In this document: positions 2,156 to 58,915 of the stretch, piece by piece
Position numbering within the stretch: position 1 is the stretch's first letter
Layout of the letters: every line of letters starts with the position of its first letter
Assembly (NCBI GenBank): GCA_030532685.1
Contig: JAUNKN010000004.1
Span: forward strand, 53,033-117,032
Direction: 5' to 3'
Source of the DNA: Bacteroidales bacterium
Lineage (GTDB): Bacteria > Bacteroidota > Bacteroidia > Bacteroidales > Bacteroidaceae
Length of the DNA stretch: 64,000 bases
Program-made: the position numbers and the translations under genes
Notes under the pieces: model-generated
The model's input: only the letters and a program-made list of their open reading frames with translations
Database searches by the model: none
What the model was told of the DNA's origin: nothing

Positions 2156-4102
<1,947 letters not shown>

Positions 4103-11314: not shown

Positions 11315-12241
11315 ATGACCCTGCAACAACTCGAATATATCGTGGCTGTGGCACAACATCGCCATTTTCTCAAAGCCGCCGAAGCCTGCAACGTGACGCA
11401 ACCCACTCTCAGTTCTATGGTACAAAAACTCGAAGAGGAGCTGGGTACCAAAATCTTTGACCGCAAGCAAAAACCTCTCGCCCTGACCGACGTAGGGCAA
11501 GTGGTCGTGGAGCATGCGCAGCAAATGCTACAACAAGCACGGCGCCTGCGCGAAAGCGTCGATGAAGCGCGCGGCACACTCACCGGAACTTTTCGCATCG
11601 GAGTGTTGCCCACCATTGCGCCTTACCTCATCCCTCGCTTCTTCCCAACACTGACTCGCGAGCATCCCAAACTGGACTTGCGCATTCAGGAAATGAAGAC
11701 CTCACAAATCAAAAAAGCGCTGGCACAGGGCGAAATTGATGCGGGAATTTTAGCTCAAACAGAGGGGCTGGAGGAGCTGAGCACGTACTCGCTCTTCTTC
11801 GAGCAGTATTTTGTCTATGCCGCCCAAGTCACACCGCTTCATGCTCTCTCGTCCGTGCGCACCGACGATTTGCGCAGCACCCCCCTTTGGCTACTCGACG
11901 AAGGACACTGTTTTCGTGATCAGCTCGTCAAATTTTGCCAGTTGAAAGGTGCAAGCCATAGCCAACAGGCCTATAAACTAGGAAGCATAGAAACGTTCAT
12001 GCGCATCGTCGAAAGTGGTATGGGAGCAACGTTCATTCCCGAGCTATGCATGCTCCAACTCTCGGAGGATCAGCGCGAAATGGTGAGACCCTTTGCCATT
12101 CCTGTGCCCGTGCGACAAATCCTCTTTGCCACGGCACCCGATTGTATGCGTCACGGGTTGGTCAATATGCTCATCGAAAGTATCCGCCAATCGGTGCCTG
12201 CCTCCATGCACAAACTCAGCCATGCTCACCGCTCTCTCTAA
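11315..12241 (+). CDS. oxyR: Peroxide-sensing LysR-type regulator OxyR
   Basis: 308 residues from ATG 11315 (MTLQQLEYIVAVAQHRHFLKAA); the frame is open to 11186, but the promoter at 11260..11290 rules that out. An N-terminal winged helix-turn-helix (about 1-60, AAEACNVTQPTLSSMVQKLE) is followed by the LysR substrate domain. The redox pair is present as GHCFRDQLVKFC with Cys199 and Cys208, the same numbers and spacing as in E. coli OxyR, so it should form the peroxide-induced disulfide. It is expected to activate ahpC-ahpF, whose upstream region has a matching operator (43021..43057). xerD follows after 15 bases. Confidence 0.95.
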   Translation: MTLQQLEYIVAVAQHRHFLKAAEACNVTQPTLSSMVQKLEEELGTKIFDRKQKPLALTDVGQVVVEHAQQMLQQARRLRESVDEARGTLTGTFRIGVLPTIAPYLIPRFFPTLTREHPKLDLRIQEMKTSQIKKALAQGEIDAGILAQTEGLEELSTYSLFFEQYFVYAAQVTPLHALSSVRTDDLRSTPLWLLDEGHCFRDQLVKFCQLKGASHSQQAYKLGSIETFMRIVESGMGATFIPELCMLQLSEDQREMVRPFAIPVPVRQILFATAPDCMRHGLVNMLIESIRQSVPASMHKLSHAHRSL

Positions 12242-12256
12242 GCGATTTTTCTTAGT

Positions 12257-13168
12257 ATGACGCTGACTTTAGCACAACTCACGCAACGTTACGAGCAATA
12301 CCTACTGTTGGAACAAGGCTTGTCGGCCAATAGCCGTGAGGCTTATGAGCGAGACTTGCGCCGCTATTTGGAGTATTGCCAAGAGCAGCAACTCGACGTG
12401 CTGACCGTAGCCTTGCCCGATTTGCACAACTACACTTACGCTCTGCACAACATGGGGCTTGAGGCGCGCTCCATCGCTCGTATGCTCAGCGGCGTGCGCT
12501 CTTTTTATCGCTTCCTGCAGTTGGACGGACACCTCGCTCAAGACCCGACAGAACTACTCGAAAACCCTCGCATCCCCAAGCACCTTCCCGATGTGCTTAC
12601 CTTGGAGGAAGTGGAGACCATTTTGAGTGTCATTGACCAGTCAAAGCCCGAGGGACAACGAGATCACTGCCTCATCGAACTCCTTTATTCTTGTGGCTTG
12701 CGTGTGAGCGAGGTTTGCTCCTTGAAATTGAGCGATTTATTCTTAGAGGAAGGCTTCATCCGTGTCACGGGCAAAGGCGACAAACAACGTATCGTCCCCA
12801 TTTCACCTCGCGCCATTCACGAAATACACAACTGGCTCGATGCCCGTGCCGACATCAATATCAAAGCGGGCGAAGAGGACTTTCTTTTTGTTTCGGCTAC
12901 ACGTGGGCGACACCTCTCCCGCATCACGGTGTTTCACAACATCAAGCAGTACGTCGCAGCAGCCGAAATCCACAAAGAGGTTTCGCCCCATACCTTTCGA
13001 CACACTTTTGCCACTCACCTACTCGAAGGTGGCGCTTCGCTCCGCGCCATTCAGGTGATGCTTGGACACGAAAGTATCGCGACCACCGAGATTTACACAC
13101 ATCTCGACAGCCATCTGTTGCGCGAGCAAGTACTCAAACATTTTCCACGCAACCAGTCGACCAACTGA
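12257..13168 (+). CDS. xerD: Site-specific tyrosine recombinase XerD
   Basis: 303 residues, the usual XerC/D length. The N-terminal SAM-like DNA-binding domain covers about 1-100. The catalytic set is complete: Arg149 (SCGLRVSEV), Lys173 (TGKGDKQR), His245 and Arg248 (SPHTFRHTFATH), His271 (MLGHES), and the nucleophile Tyr280 (TEIYTHL). It resolves chromosome dimers at dif and is a housekeeping recombinase; no phage or integron genes are nearby. It is 15 bases downstream of oxyR and shares its promoter, so its expression may follow oxyR. XerC versus XerD cannot be settled by sequence alone, but Bacteroidales copies of this type are usually called XerD. Confidence 0.9.
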   Translation: MTLTLAQLTQRYEQYLLLEQGLSANSREAYERDLRRYLEYCQEQQLDVLTVALPDLHNYTYALHNMGLEARSIARMLSGVRSFYRFLQLDGHLAQDPTELLENPRIPKHLPDVLTLEEVETILSVIDQSKPEGQRDHCLIELLYSCGLRVSEVCSLKLSDLFLEEGFIRVTGKGDKQRIVPISPRAIHEIHNWLDARADINIKAGEEDFLFVSATRGRHLSRITVFHNIKQYVAAAEIHKEVSPHTFRHTFATHLLEGGASLRAIQVMLGHESIATTEIYTHLDSHLLREQVLKHFPRNQSTN

Positions 13169-17835: not shown

Positions 17836-18552
17836 TTAATCTAATTCGGTTTCTATCGTTTGTGCGGCAAGCCACTGCTCAAAGTCGGCCAGATCGAAGC
17901 AACGCGCCTCGTCCCACTCACCGACCCTTGTGCGGCGCAAAGCCGTGAGGTGAGCTCCCGAGCCCAAAGCCTGCCCGATGTCGCGCGCCAAAGCACGAAT
18001 ATAGGTGCCTTTGGAGCAAACAATGCGCAAAGTGATGTGAGGCTCCTTGCCTGCCAGTGCGCAGTCCAGCAGTTCGAGTTCGTCAATGCGCAGGAGTTTG
18101 GCTTTTAGTTCCACTTCCTTGCCTTTGCGTGCCAGGTCGTAGGCGCGTTTCCCATCGACCTTACAGGCCGAAAAGGCAGGAGGAACTTGCCAAATGTCGC
18201 CCAAAAATTGCGGTAAAGTCTGCTCTACGAGTGCACGGTCTATGTGGGCGGTGGGATAGGTCGCATCGATGGGATGCTCCAAGTCAAAGCTGGGCGTGGT
18301 GGCTCCAAGTCGCAGGGTGGCCACATACTCCTTGACCCCAGCCTGCAATTCGTCGATCTTCTTCGTGGCTCGTCCTGTGCACACGACCATTACGCCCGAG
18401 GCCAGTGGGTCAAGCGTACCGGCATGGCCCACCTTGATTTTTTGCCCCCCCTGCGCACGAGTGATGAGCCATCGTACACGCGCCACGAGCTGAAAGGAAG
18501 TCAGCCCGAGAGGCTTGTCGAAGGCGAGAATTTGTCCTTTGGGAAAGTTCAT
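17836..18552 (-). CDS. truB: tRNA pseudouridine(55) synthase TruB
   Basis: 238 residues, within the range for short bacterial TruB. N-terminal [16 protein letters not shown], catalytic Asp in [16 protein letters not shown] (about residues 43-58), [15 protein letters not shown], and the [16 protein letters not shown] motif near residue 178. It makes pseudouridine 55 in the T-loop of tRNAs. It is between uppP (27 bases) and queA (7 bases) in the operon. Confidence 0.96.
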
Positions 18553-18579
18553 GTCGTCTGGTTTAGTTCTTGGAGGGCT

Positions 18580-19464
18580 TTATTGCACGGGAGGCCTTGC
18601 GGGTTGTTCAAGAGTTTCGGGAGCTTCGTCGTGCATTTTCAATTCAATGCCTGCATAAGGCAGCAACAAAATGGCGGTGCCCACGGCGATGCGATACCAG
18701 CCAAAAGCGCGGAAACCATAGCGCGACACGTAGCCTATGAAATACTTGATTGCGACTATTGCCACGACAAAAGCGACCAGGCAACCCAAGAGGAGGAGCC
18801 AGAGGTTGTCGCCCTCGAAGAGCACATTGCCCGAGCCATGCTTGATGAGGTCGTAGGTCTTTTTGAGCGTAGCTCCCAACATCGTGGGAACGGCCAAGAA
18901 AAACGAGAATTCGGCTGCTACCTTGCGCGAAAGCCCCTGCTGCATTCCTCCCACTATTGTGGCCATGGAACGCGAAGTGCCAGGCAGCAAAGCAGCAATG
19001 CACTGGTAGAGCCCCACCATCCAAGCACGGCGATAGGTGAGCGGAGCGCTCTTAGGGCCATGGTCAAAAAGACGATCGCAAAAGAGCATGAACACACCGC
19101 CCACCACAAGCATGATGGCCGTCATGGTTACGCTCTCCAAGTTTTCGTCGATAAAATCGCCCAACGTGAGCCCTACCACCACGGCAGGAAGCACTCCCAC
19201 CACGAGCTTCAGGTAGAAATGTCCCATCGCCCTCCACCAAGATTCGCCTTCTCGACGTTCGGGCAGGAAAAAGCGTCGCCAATAGAGCACCACGACCGAT
19301 AGGATGGCGCCCAACTGAATGATCACGGTGAAAGCCTTGAGAAAGGGCGTGCTCTCCATGCCCAGCAGGCCTTCGGTGATGATCATGTGCCCCGTCGAAC
19401 TTACGGGCAAAAACTCCGTGAGCCCTTCGACAATGGCGATAATGATTGTTTCAAACCAAGTCAT
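18580..19464 (-). CDS. uppP: Undecaprenyl-diphosphatase UppP (BacA)
   Basis: 294 residues, about eight hydrophobic segments. Both active-site blocks are present: EGLTEFLPVSSTGHMII (residues 14-30) and LLPGTSRSMATIVGG (about 180-195). It dephosphorylates undecaprenyl diphosphate to recycle the lipid carrier for peptidoglycan and O-antigen synthesis, and protects against bacitracin. The C-terminus has a hydrophilic Pro-rich tail (ETLEQPARPPVQ) longer than in many homologues. Its start overlaps the DUF3098 stop by 4 bases, implying translational coupling. Confidence 0.96.
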   Translation of the reverse strand: MTWFETIIIAIVEGLTEFLPVSSTGHMIITEGLLGMESTPFLKAFTVIIQLGAILSVVVLYWRRFFLPERREGESWWRAMGHFYLKLVVGVLPAVVVGLTLGDFIDENLESVTMTAIMLVVGGVFMLFCDRLFDHGPKSAPLTYRRAWMVGLYQCIAALLPGTSRSMATIVGGMQQGLSRKVAAEFSFFLAVPTMLGATLKKTYDLIKHGSGNVLFEGDNLWLLLLGCLVAFVVAIVAIKYFIGYVSRYGFRAFGWYRIAVGTAILLLPYAGIELKMHDEAPETLEQPARPPVQ

Positions 19465-19703
19465 GATGCGCTACCCTCCTCTTCGCTACGCTTGCCGCGA
19501 TATAGGATAGCCACCACAATGCCTACATAGCCTGCCAAGCACACCATGGGCGCAACCAAGGTGTGACGTGCATCGAAAATGGCTTCGTTGAACTGTTCGT
19601 GACTGCTCCCCTCACCGCTCATCAGGATAAAGCCCAAGAGAATGGTAGCTATGGAAACGGCGAGAATGATAAAGTTGATTTTCTGAAAAGCAAACTGCTT
19701 CAT
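19461..19703 (-). CDS. DUF3098 family small membrane protein
   Basis: 80 residues from ATG 19703 (MKQFAFQKINFIILAVSIATI). There are two TM helices, about 10-28 and 50-70, with a short polar segment GEGSSHEQFNEAIFDARHTLVAP between and a charged tail RGKRSEEEGSAS. The family is confined largely to Bacteroidetes and nearly always sits between ftsX and uppP, as here; function is unknown but its neighbourhood points to envelope biogenesis or division. It overlaps uppP by 4 bases. Confidence 0.9.
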   Translation of the reverse strand: MKQFAFQKINFIILAVSIATILLGFILMSGEGSSHEQFNEAIFDARHTLVAPMVCLAGYVGIVVAILYRGKRSEEEGSAS

Positions 19704-19798
19704 AACGCTAAGTTTGTGGAAAATGGAGCGGTGCGTGGCCTCAATCCGGTTGCATGGCAGGGGCATCTACCTCTCCTTAAGAAATGATGTGTATTGGC

Positions 19799-56006: not shown

Positions 56007-56012
56007 CGTTGT

Positions 56013-56074
56013 GTTTTTCATAGTATTAGATTTAAGGTTAACAAGGTTGGGATACAGCGGTATCCCTTTTTTTT
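56013..56074 (+). ncRNA. Candidate small RNA of about 60 bases
   Basis: No plus-strand gene lies within 10 kb upstream, yet there is a promoter (55975..56006) followed by an intrinsic terminator: GGGATAC (56049..56055), loop AGCG, GTATCCC (56060..56066), then eight T. Between them is an unstructured AU-rich segment with TTTAAGGTTAACAAGGTT. No start codon with a useful frame is present. This is the layout of a Bacteroidales sRNA; whether it belongs to a published family could not be checked. Confidence 0.6.
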
Positions 56075-56238
56075 GCTCCTTACTCTCTTACTTTCCCATA
56101 TTTCTCAATTACAGCTTTTGCCTATGCGAGGCTATTGGCACAAAAGGCCGCACCGCAACCAAGGAGAAAAAGGCCTTACCACTCAGAGAGCAAAGCGCCA
56201 GACAAACCCTCGGAGCATCGCGAACATAGGAAGAAAAA

Positions 56239-56629: not shown

Positions 56630-58234
56630 CTATTTGTTCGACAGGGACATCTCTTCGGGCTTTCGAGGATAGTCTATCGTATAGTGCAATCCTCGACTCT
56701 CTTTGCGCTCTATGGCCCAACGGGTAATGAGATACCCCACGTTGATCATATTGCGGAGCTCGCAGAGTTCGGGAGTGGCCGAAGCCCGCTTGAAGAGCTC
56801 TTCCGTTTCGATATAAAGCTGGTCAAGACGCGCCCAAGCACGACGCAGGCGCAAGTCAGAGCGCACGATACCGACATAGGCCGACATGATTTGCCCCACT
56901 TCGCGTTCTGCTTGCGTAATCAGAACTCGCTCATCGTTGGAAAGCGTCCCCTCGTCGTTCCATTCGGGCACATCGGTTCGAAGCTGACAGTTGTCTATAC
57001 GTTCAAGAGAATGTTGGGCAGCCGCCTCGGCATAAACCACCGCTTCTGTGAGGGAATTGGAGGCCAAACGATTGCCGCCATGCAAGCCCGTGCAAGCACA
57101 CTCCCCAATGGCATAAAGACGATCGATGCTCGACTGACCATCTAAATCGACCTTGATACCTCCGCACATATAGTGAGCCGCTGGAGCAACAGGAATCATT
57201 TGCCGTGTAATGTCCAGCCCCAAAGAGAGGCATTTGGCGTAGATATTGGGGAAATGTCGTCGCGTTTCCTCGGGATCCTTGTGGCGCACATCGAGACAAA
57301 CATGGTCGAGGCCGCCTCGCTTCATTTCGGCATCGATGGCACGCGCCACGACATCTCGAGGAGCAAGGGACAGCCGCTCGTCATAGCGATGCATGAACTC
57401 CTCTCCCGTGGGCAAACGCAAGATGCCTCCATAGCCACGCATGGCTTCTGTGATGAGATAAGCGGGGTGAGTTTCGCTGGGATTAAACAATACCGTGGGA
57501 TGAAACTGAACAAACTCCATGTCCTGCACCGTTGCCTTGGCGCGATAGGCCATGGCTATACCATCGCCCGTAGCGATATTAGGATTGCTCGTCGTGGAGT
57601 AGACGGCTCCACAGCCTCCCGTAGCCAATACTGTAACGCGCGACAGATAGGTATCAATCTTTCCCCTACGAGCATCCAGGATGTAGGCTCCGTAGCATTC
57701 TATATCAGGAGTGCGGCGGGTCACCTCTACACCAAGATGGTGCTGAGTGATGATCTCTACCGCAAAATGATGTTCAAGCACAGCAATATTCGTGGCTCGA
57801 TGCACGGCAGCGATGAGCCCACGCTGTATTTCGGCACCAGTATCGTCGGCATGGTGCAAAATACGGAATTCCGAGTGCCCTCCTTCGCGATGCAAATCAT
57901 ACTGCCCATCGTTTTTCTTATCGAATTGCACCCCCCAACGCACCAAACGCTCTATGGCCGCGGGCCCACCCTCAACCACACGACGCACAGCTTGCAGGTC
58001 ATTGAGATGATCGCCCGCAATCAAGGTGTCCTCAATGTGTTTTTGAAAATTGTCTACTTCAAAATTGGTCACACTCGACACTCCTCCCTGAGCCTTAGTC
58101 GTGTTGGCTTCGGCAATGGTGGTTTTGCACACTAATGCCACCTTGCAATCGGGTCTTGCTTCTGCCACTTGGAGAGCATAGCTCATACCGGCCACACCTG
58201 CTCCAATGATTAGAAAATCGTAATTTCGAGTCAT
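56630..58234 (-). CDS. nadB: L-aspartate oxidase
   Basis: 534 residues. FAD site DFLIIGAGVAGMSYALQVAE (from residue 5), substrate-binding HREGGHSEFRILHHADDTG (about 115-133), GGCGAVYSTTSNPNIATGDG (about 207-226), and the second FAD block IGECACTGLHGGNRLASNS (about 375-393). The Glu/Ser-containing HREGGHS motif separates NadB from the related FrdA/SdhA. It oxidises L-aspartate to iminoaspartate, the first step of de novo NAD synthesis, and can use fumarate as acceptor in anaerobes. nadA and nadC are not adjacent. No clear promoter was found. Confidence 0.96.
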   Translation of the reverse strand: MTRNYDFLIIGAGVAGMSYALQVAEARPDCKVALVCKTTIAEANTTKAQGGVSSVTNFEVDNFQKHIEDTLIAGDHLNDLQAVRRVVEGGPAAIERLVRWGVQFDKKNDGQYDLHREGGHSEFRILHHADDTGAEIQRGLIAAVHRATNIAVLEHHFAVEIITQHHLGVEVTRRTPDIECYGAYILDARRGKIDTYLSRVTVLATGGCGAVYSTTSNPNIATGDGIAMAYRAKATVQDMEFVQFHPTVLFNPSETHPAYLITEAMRGYGGILRLPTGEEFMHRYDERLSLAPRDVVARAIDAEMKRGGLDHVCLDVRHKDPEETRRHFPNIYAKCLSLGLDITRQMIPVAPAAHYMCGGIKVDLDGQSSIDRLYAIGECACTGLHGGNRLASNSLTEAVVYAEAAAQHSLERIDNCQLRTDVPEWNDEGTLSNDERVLITQAEREVGQIMSAYVGIVRSDLRLRRAWARLDQLYIETEELFKRASATPELCELRNMINVGYLITRWAIERKESRGLHYTIDYPRKPEEMSLSNK

Positions 58235-58335
58235 GAAAAAGTCTTATTTTGAAAGAATCGACGAATCGCTCCCTTGCTTCCTCTCCCTTATAAGTATAGA
58301 TATTTGCAATATGTTCTTTAGCGCAACACTTATCC

Positions 58336-58525
58336 GATGTGCTAGGTAGCATTTGGTAAGCAATTCACAACTACACACTCACATTTGTAAACATCGGTGA
58401 GGATGTTGTTGCTACTGCAAAGGTAGCATTCGGTAAGCAATTCACAACCATGCCCGAGAACACCCAATTGCTACGTTGGATGTTGTTGCTACTGCAAAGG
58501 TAGCATTCGGTAAGCAATTCACAGC
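58336..58525 (-). CRISPR. Two-spacer CRISPR array, type II-C-like repeat, no cas genes nearby
   Basis: Repeats: 58479..58525 (47 bases, one change near one end), 58402..58448 (47 bases) and 58336..58371 (36 bases, degenerate). Spacers are both exactly 30 bases: 58449..58478 and 58372..58401; the period is 77. On the minus strand the repeat opens GTTGTGAATTGCTTACCG and closes GTAGCAACAACATC, like the long Bacteroidetes type II-C repeats. Each full repeat contains TACCTTTG. The degenerate repeat marks the trailer end, so transcription should run on the minus strand. No cas gene lies in the window, so interference would need cas9 elsewhere. Confidence 0.8.
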
Positions 58526-58744
58526 TAAACTTACCGAAAAAAGACAAGAAAACAAACGAGAACACCGCAAATCGACCAACAGAAAGCAAGAAGAGGAAAC
58601 GCTTTGCGTAAAACAGAGTAGCGCGCAAACAAATTCTCCGCAAAACAAGCATCTTGGGGCGTCGCCCAATGAGGTAGGACATCGCACAACTGTGGTCACA
58701 AATAGGGGAGCGACTATTTTCCTTGCCCCTCGCCAACCCATAAA

Positions 58745-58784
58745 AACAAAAAGAAACCCACCAACCTGGACAGGCTGATGGGTT
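58745..58784 (-). terminator. Terminator of tRNA-Pro
   Basis: On the minus strand AACCCATCAGCCTG / AGGTTGGTGGGTT hairpin, then TCTTTTTG. Confidence 0.75.
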
Positions 58785-58787
58785 TTG

Positions 58788-58861
58788 TCGGGGTGACTGG
58801 ACTCGAACCAGCGACCTCACGCCCCCCAGACGCGTACTCTAACCAACTGAGCTACACCCCG
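58788..58861 (-). tRNA. tRNA-Pro (anticodon GGG)
   Basis: Reads CGGGGTGTAGCTCAGTTGGT at the 5' end on the minus strand. Acceptor stem CGGGGTG/CACCCCG with C1-G72 and discriminator A73, both typical of bacterial tRNA-Pro. D-loop AGTTGGTTA, anticodon loop CTGGGGG with anticodon GGG, T-arm GCTGG-TTCGAGT-CCAGT. No CCA is encoded. The promoter is at 58916..58946. Confidence 0.95.
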
Positions 58862-58915
58862 ATTTCTAAGGAGGGACTTCAAGGAGCATTGCTGCCTCCT
58901 TGCTGTTTGCGAGTG

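Follow-up and report, generated by a model that had tools for sequence, protein, structure and literature searches.

The locus analysed here raises the question of how CRISPR spacers could be expressed from a short piece of array that lies between a tRNA gene and nadB in a Bacteroidales genome. The sequence-only reading of this DNA had described an orphan mini array in which each repeat carries a complete Bacteroidota promoter, so that every spacer could be transcribed singly. Its claims were followed up in the window (the whole stretch of 64,000 nucleotides that was analysed), in the rest of the genome and in related genomes.

The array fragment and the CRISPR-Cas system of its genome

The features of the locus are listed in the order of the crRNA sense (minus strand), followed by the neighbours:

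58479..58525, minus strand: repeat 1, 46/47 identical to the genome's repeat, with CTG replacing TTG at positions 2-4
58495..58502, minus strand: -7 box TACCTTTG of repeat 1
58449..58478, minus strand: spacer 1, 30 nt
58402..58448, minus strand: repeat 2, perfect, the repeat of the arrays on contig C42, with TTG at 58447-58445
58418..58425, minus strand: -7 box TACCTTTG of repeat 2
58372..58401, minus strand: spacer 2, 30 nt
58325..58371, minus strand: last repeat, truncated, whose box reads TACCTAGC
58754..58785, minus strand: terminator-like hairpin 3' of tRNA-Pro, between the tRNA and the array
58787..58861, minus strand: tRNA-Pro(ggg), upstream neighbour
56630..58234, minus strand (as the fragment): nadB, L-aspartate oxidase, downstream neighbour

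The array is real: it consists of three 47-nt repeats (the last one truncated) and two 30-nt spacers with a period of 77, as was confirmed from the coordinates of all three repeats, and the 46-nt exact direct repeat within it excludes a chance resemblance. The minus-strand sequence of repeat 2 is GTTGTGAATTGCTTACCGAATGCTACCTTTGCAGTAGCAACAACATC, with TTG at positions 2-4, 19 nt, and then TACCTTTG at positions 24-31, just as had been read. The claim of a complete promoter in each repeat held for repeat 2 (1/3): the -7 box TAnnTTTG of the sigma-ABfr promoter is intact in two of the three repeats, but repeat 1 has CTG for TTG and the last repeat has no box. That last repeat, said to have lost exactly the TTTG of its box, has indeed lost the box, but the whole 3' 19 nt are gone with it (5/19 matching, i.e. 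chance level) and positions 1-28 are kept (58344-58371, 27/28 matching). The box went with the rest of the repeat's 3' part, and its loss says little by itself and need not have been selected, because the six-repeat array on C42 is also truncated and its last repeat keeps the box. All three repeats of the fragment retain a complete tracrRNA-pairing part.

The assembly is a draft (1.87 Mb, 54 contigs, 85.5% complete). It contains three further arrays, with 6 and 20 repeats on C42 (the fragment's repeat) and 36 repeats on C11 (a 2-base variant); these counts include decayed end copies, and a few C42 copies vary. Most repeats in the two C42 arrays have exactly the fragment's repeat sequence, which differs from that of C11 by two changes. 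A 201-base query over the array found 28 matching places in the genome, itself included. The 556-bp intergenic stretch with the array had matches in 7 of 58 same-genus genomes (its own included), within the array part of the query; a mobile element was considered and set aside. Off-target integration by Cas1-Cas2 at a chance site was ruled out, as the fragment's repeats agree with the genome's own repeat at 46-47 of 47 positions.

Two observations concern the other arrays. The 5'-end (older) repeats of both C42 arrays bear the two bases of the C11 variant (L010, L011, L012), which suggests that the C11 form of the repeat is older than the C42 form. In the C11 array (L012), two adjacent spacers occur twice (18546-18700 and 19624-19778), as a duplicated segment.

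When the genome was searched for the HNH domain of Cas9 and for Cas1, each query had a single match, located in either case on contig C46; the window had neither, in agreement with the reported absence of cas genes from it. At that locus (L013), matches above cut-off were obtained to TIGR01865 (6930-11429), TIGR03639 (type II Cas1, 11445-12350) and TIGR01573 (12402-12776). A search for cas4 (II-B marker, PF01930) gave no match in the 85.5%-complete draft genome, with a control that matched in 8 of 14 genomes; csn2 (II-A marker, PF09711) gave no match in the genome, and its control likewise matched in 0 of 14 genomes. The array is assigned to the genome's CRISPR-Cas system, classed as type II-C, with one cas9-cas1-cas2 operon on C46. 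Among the 80 loci listed of 568, the closest named relative of its Cas9 is from Alloprevotella (55% identity), followed by Prevotellaceae, so the host probably belongs there. A tracrRNA lies upstream of cas9 on the other strand; its anti-repeat matches repeat positions 2-17 (16/16) and it folds with a terminal hairpin (z -3.3). The term "orphan" is thus apt for the window, which had no Cas9 or Cas1 match, but not for the genome, where the search for cas9 and an anti-repeat found both on C46, together with cas1 and cas2. No repeat was found on C46, and the stretch inspected around the cas genes has no array next to them; every array detected in the assembly, with the caution due to a draft, stands apart from cas genes. 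Two identical 78-nt tandem copies (3508-3585 and 3626-3703) were also seen in L013, and these, judged by eye, presumably resemble tRNA genes.

The TAnnTTTG box in repeats and before tracrRNAs

In Bacteroides thetaiotaomicron, elements centred at -7 and -33 stand before 81% of primary starts, according to the pertinent passages of PMC7366714. The window contains 48 matches to TAnnTTTG against 24.9 in 100 shuffles (sd 4.4, largest 37), as expected if the genome uses the Bacteroidota promoter.

Repeats from Bacteroidota Cas9 loci were collected with an array finder followed by filtering. Set 1 was drawn from 60 stretches of the same order with a Cas9 match, hand-picked from 163 other genomes (strong matches first, then a divergent selection), and gave 45 distinct repeats, including two of the fragment's own genome, after L094 (32 nt) and L097 (30 nt) were dropped. 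Set 2 was drawn from 80 named loci out of the 568 encoding a Cas9 relative, 26 of them without an array; 5 of 57 rows were dropped on length or orientation score, and 51 distinct repeats were obtained (47 new). The combined collection comprised 92 distinct repeats of 44-51 nt.

An exact TAnnTTTG starting at position 23-28 was present in 66 of the 92 repeats, and shuffling positions 17 to the end gave a mean of 1.5 (sd 1.2) and a maximum of 7 of 92 in 1000 shuffles. The box occurred in 34/45 repeats of set 1 (maximum 4 in 2000 shuffles; 0 on the other strand), in 32/38 new Bacteroidales-type repeats of set 2 and in 0/9 from outside the Bacteroidales, where the 38 were assigned by record titles, some of which read only Bacteroidota, Bacteroidia or Marinilabiliaceae. 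These counts are not independent, because the repeats are related by descent; in a subset with dissimilar tails (11-nt tails agreeing at no more than 5 positions) the box was found in 13/18 repeats, with 8/11 at a limit of 4 positions and 24/36 at a limit of 6.

The box start lies 18-19 nt past TTG in 51/66 repeats and its distance to the spacer is 16 nt in 46/66. TTG itself is present at positions 2-4 in 90/92 repeats, a conservation that proves nothing alone, as these bases are also inside the tracrRNA-pairing part. By column information, positions 1-14, the box and the 3' end are conserved blocks, and the stretches on either side of the box are variable. A purine stands five nt after the box in 55/66 repeats; other offsets are equally rich, so this is weak as start-site evidence. 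Three repeats (L065, L086, L103) lack a box at 23-28 and have GATCTTTG at 32-34, possibly a shifted promoter.

Beyond repeat position 18, identity between repeat and tracrRNA locus was 23.5% (24 loci) and 24.9% (30 confirmed loci), i.e. at chance level, so on this comparison conservation of the box would not be due to tracrRNA pairing. An anti-repeat was not found in 21/45 (set 1) and 18/52 loci (set 2). The tracrRNAs that were located have TAnnTTTG upstream in 18/24 cases within 70 nt (set 1, in which the L054 match was counted though unlike a tracrRNA) and in 23/30 cases at 10-25 nt (set 2). The fragment's own genome has TTTG-N19-TATCTTTG before its tracrRNA, a layout like that of the repeat, TTG-N19-TACCTTTG. 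In a Chitinophaga locus (L231), the repeat contains TACCTTAG and TATCTTAG stands upstream of the tracrRNA, a shared box variant.

The box could be conserved for a cause other than transcription: Cas1-Cas2 may recognise it, it may matter for the structure or processing of RNA, or it may simply be shared by descent. The 3'-end positions of the repeat, outside the tracrRNA-pairing part, are conserved too, and repeats from outside the Bacteroidales have a similar core that lacks the final G: they are among the 26/92 repeats without an exact box and often have TTTA or TTAG at its end, and with one mismatch allowed the count rises to 83/92 overall (null 17.0, sd 3.5, maximum 29) and to 7/9 outside the Bacteroidales. 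Yet the commonest gapped word in this part of the repeat is exactly the group's promoter element (66/92, against 47 for the runner-up, an overlapping word), its distance to TTG suits the -33/-7 geometry, and it recurs before the tracrRNA, where Cas1-Cas2 recognition has no part; the dissimilar-tail repeats speak against shared descent in the same way. We regard such other causes as improbable. The comparison strongly supports the promoter reading, in which TAnnTTTG in the repeats would be an element of the phylum's housekeeping (sigma-ABfr) promoter. With the box centred at position 27.5 and TTG at 3, the -7/-33 geometry (relevant passages of PMC7366714) predicts a start near repeat position 35-36, which for repeat 2 corresponds to a predicted start near 58414-58413.

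Repeat-borne promoters are already known in type II-C systems, from Neisseria, and a TTG element has been proposed in Flavobacterium. In the type II-C system of Neisseria meningitidis a promoter has reportedly been mapped in each repeat, and spacers are said to be transcribed singly without a leader promoter. These repeat promoters are treated in passages of PMC7038990 and PMC5006608. The fragment would resemble that system in being type II-C with one in-repeat promoter per spacer, read here from sequence alone, whereas starts have been shown in Neisseria; the Neisseria promoter is an extended -10 promoter within the nine final nt of the repeat, unlike the -33/-7 kind proposed here, with its box mostly 16 nt before the spacer. 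For the type II-C systems of Flavobacterium columnare and F. psychrophilum, passages of PMC8092290 and PMC10309648 propose a repeat-encoded TTG promoter element with transcription toward the leader. Flavobacterium belongs to the same phylum as the fragment's host, but those passages name TTG alone and mention no -7 box within the repeat; the F. columnare repeat has 36 nt, against 47 nt here, and Flavobacterium is among the nine non-Bacteroidales repeats surveyed, none of which has the exact box.

The CRISPR1 locus of Riemerella anatipestifer is alike in its type II-C class, 47-nt repeat, cas9-cas1-cas2 genes and 16-nt anti-repeat; its leader lies between cas2 and the array, and in the passages concerned (PMC5006608) the authors found no potential promoter in the repeats and placed promoters in the leader. 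For Prevotella intermedia CRISPR-I (type II-C), the 47-nt repeat printed in PMC5608340 has TATCTTTG at position 24 on the other strand; the paper's passages on anti-repeat loci describe these as without a strongly predicted promoter and do not mention a repeat promoter. Among the matches listed from the open-licence literature, no description of a full Bacteroidota promoter, or of TAnnTTTG, inside long type II-C repeats was found.

Array polarity and decay

Scored in the crRNA sense, the 5' end was degenerate in 25/40 arrays (own-genome arrays included, and L048 counted twice, its 5' flank being duplicated), and the 3' end was flagged in 5/54, including the fragment and the six-repeat C42 array, with L066 and L096 looking spurious. 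The 20-repeat C42 array and the C11 array have a common leader at their 3' end (83.5% identity over 170 bp, with an inverted repeat). That leader is absent from the fragment and from the six-repeat C42 array, and no copy of the C42 leader was found beside cas2 on C46. Because 5' ends decay and the leader sits at the 3' end, spacer acquisition probably takes place there, transcription running toward the leader, and leaderless fragments probably cannot grow. The polarity of type II-C arrays given in passages of PMC8092290 and PMC6737040 agrees with this, and the portion of a B. fragilis survey dealing with type II-C arrays (PMC5704556) assigned no definite leader to them.

In the 20 arrays with the consensus box, the 5'-terminal repeat keeps the box in 14, has lost it in 6 and keeps TTG at 2-4 in 3. 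Terminal-repeat decay was considered as proof of promoter use and rejected, because the outer side of terminal repeats decays in any array; it is compatible with such use and no more. Truncation points were seen at repeat positions 26 (L048), 28 (the window's fragment) and 31 (C42). In L048, the main array is preceded by a short one that is truncated at position 26; both have the same degenerate repeat at their 5' end, which looks like a duplication of the array start.

Proposed expression of the fragment, and its neighbour nadB

The preferred reading, to which we give a probability of about 0.65, is that the fragment is a leaderless piece of a type II-C array in which the repeats' own sigma-ABfr promoters would make crRNAs for Cas9 in trans. 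The long repeat would be a module of three parts: a 5' tracrRNA-pairing part, a central -7 box and a conserved 3' end. The central TAnnTTTG and the TTG at 2-4 would together form the group's housekeeping promoter, and RNA polymerase would begin transcription from it near position 35-36, some 12 nt short of the spacer. Each of the two intact boxes would thereby give a short transcript that comprises those 12 or so nt of repeat, then a spacer, then the following repeat, and since the truncated last repeat keeps the whole tracrRNA-pairing part, both spacers would have a usable 3' handle. Cas9 and the tracrRNA, encoded on another contig, could then load and use these crRNAs in trans. A piece cut from its leader and cas genes could still make crRNAs because its repeats would bring their own promoter. 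The earlier proposal of single-spacer transcription from an in-repeat promoter accordingly gains from the survey counts and the unpaired box, as a prediction drawn from comparison.

Counted against this reading are, in the survey, the 26/92 repeats without the exact box (all nine from outside the Bacteroidales among them), the relatedness of the repeats and the 6/20 arrays whose 5'-terminal repeat has lost the box. On the side of the fragment, it is leaderless, its last repeat is decayed, its repeat 1 has no TTG and its spacers had no target found. The phage and plasmid search proposed with the sequence-only reading yielded no target: exact scans of viral contigs gave 0 matches for either spacer, none of the phage records (10 and 6 for the two spacers) or plasmid records (17 and 6) covers 80% of a spacer, and in the own genome, with up to 3 mismatches, the spacers match themselves only. 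With these features the fragment may be a relic, a dead piece cut from a longer array and without useful expression, whatever promoters do in full arrays. Missing targets weigh little with a draft assembly and limited collections, however, and repeat 2 is perfect, repeat 1 has a single change, the tracrRNA-pairing part is whole in all three repeats and two boxes are intact; a dead relic is possible but doubtful.

Read-through from tRNA-Pro was set aside as the main source of transcripts. A terminator-like hairpin follows the tRNA, and upstream of the fragment's own boxes, from 58503 to 58915, the minus strand has no exact TAnnTTTG; read-through as a minor source is possible. The scan of 58100-58900 gave three terminator-like sites (mean 1.0 in shuffles). 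Elsewhere in the window, 56011-56076 (plus strand) matches Rfam RF04319 (BTncRNA_FopS, a paralogous Bacteroidetes sRNA family) at 75.1 bits.

The same promoters could have been put to another use: a stranded fragment taken over as a gene promoter would now drive nadB, whose own box is missing, and would be kept for that reason. The fragment lies on the strand of nadB and its repeats hold the nearest exact TAnnTTTG upstream of that gene (-191 and -268), and the scan reported no terminator-like site between the array and nadB. Among 40 relatives (29 of 47 same-genus and 11 of 60 family genomes), 27 have an exact box no more than 100 nt from the start of nadB (at -34 and -31 for the two closest). 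The other 13 are likewise boxless within 100 nt, though, so the absence here is not unusual; a promoter of weaker resemblance may lie closer, and the 5' UTR would be long. We consider it rather unlikely that the fragment serves nadB. Because tRNA-Pro was not found in the nadB stretches of the 40 relatives, the tRNA-array-nadB arrangement is seen in the fragment's own genome only. A comparable case is the B. fragilis orphan CRISPR upstream of hipB, for which passages of PMC5704556 suggest a regulatory role: it too has three repeats, no adjacent cas genes and an unrelated gene behind it, but its repeat is 24 nt and not type II-C, whereas the fragment's repeat is the genome's own type II-C repeat.

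Repeats are typically 36 nt elsewhere (passages of PMC5006608 and PMC5704556), and those of Bacteroidota type II-C systems are unusually long (46-49 nt here). The starts of their crRNAs have so far been left open, ascribed to TTG or placed in the leader. The in-repeat promoter reading gives one start-site prediction per repeat and invites a second look at the Riemerella paper, in which no potential promoter was seen in such repeats. If true, a -33/-7 promoter inside the repeat would account for one conserved block left unexplained by tracrRNA pairing, and spacers would be expressible however old or displaced they are. Were the takeover by nadB also true, arrays whose repeats all carry a promoter would supply ready-made promoters, taken along by any piece of array that moves.
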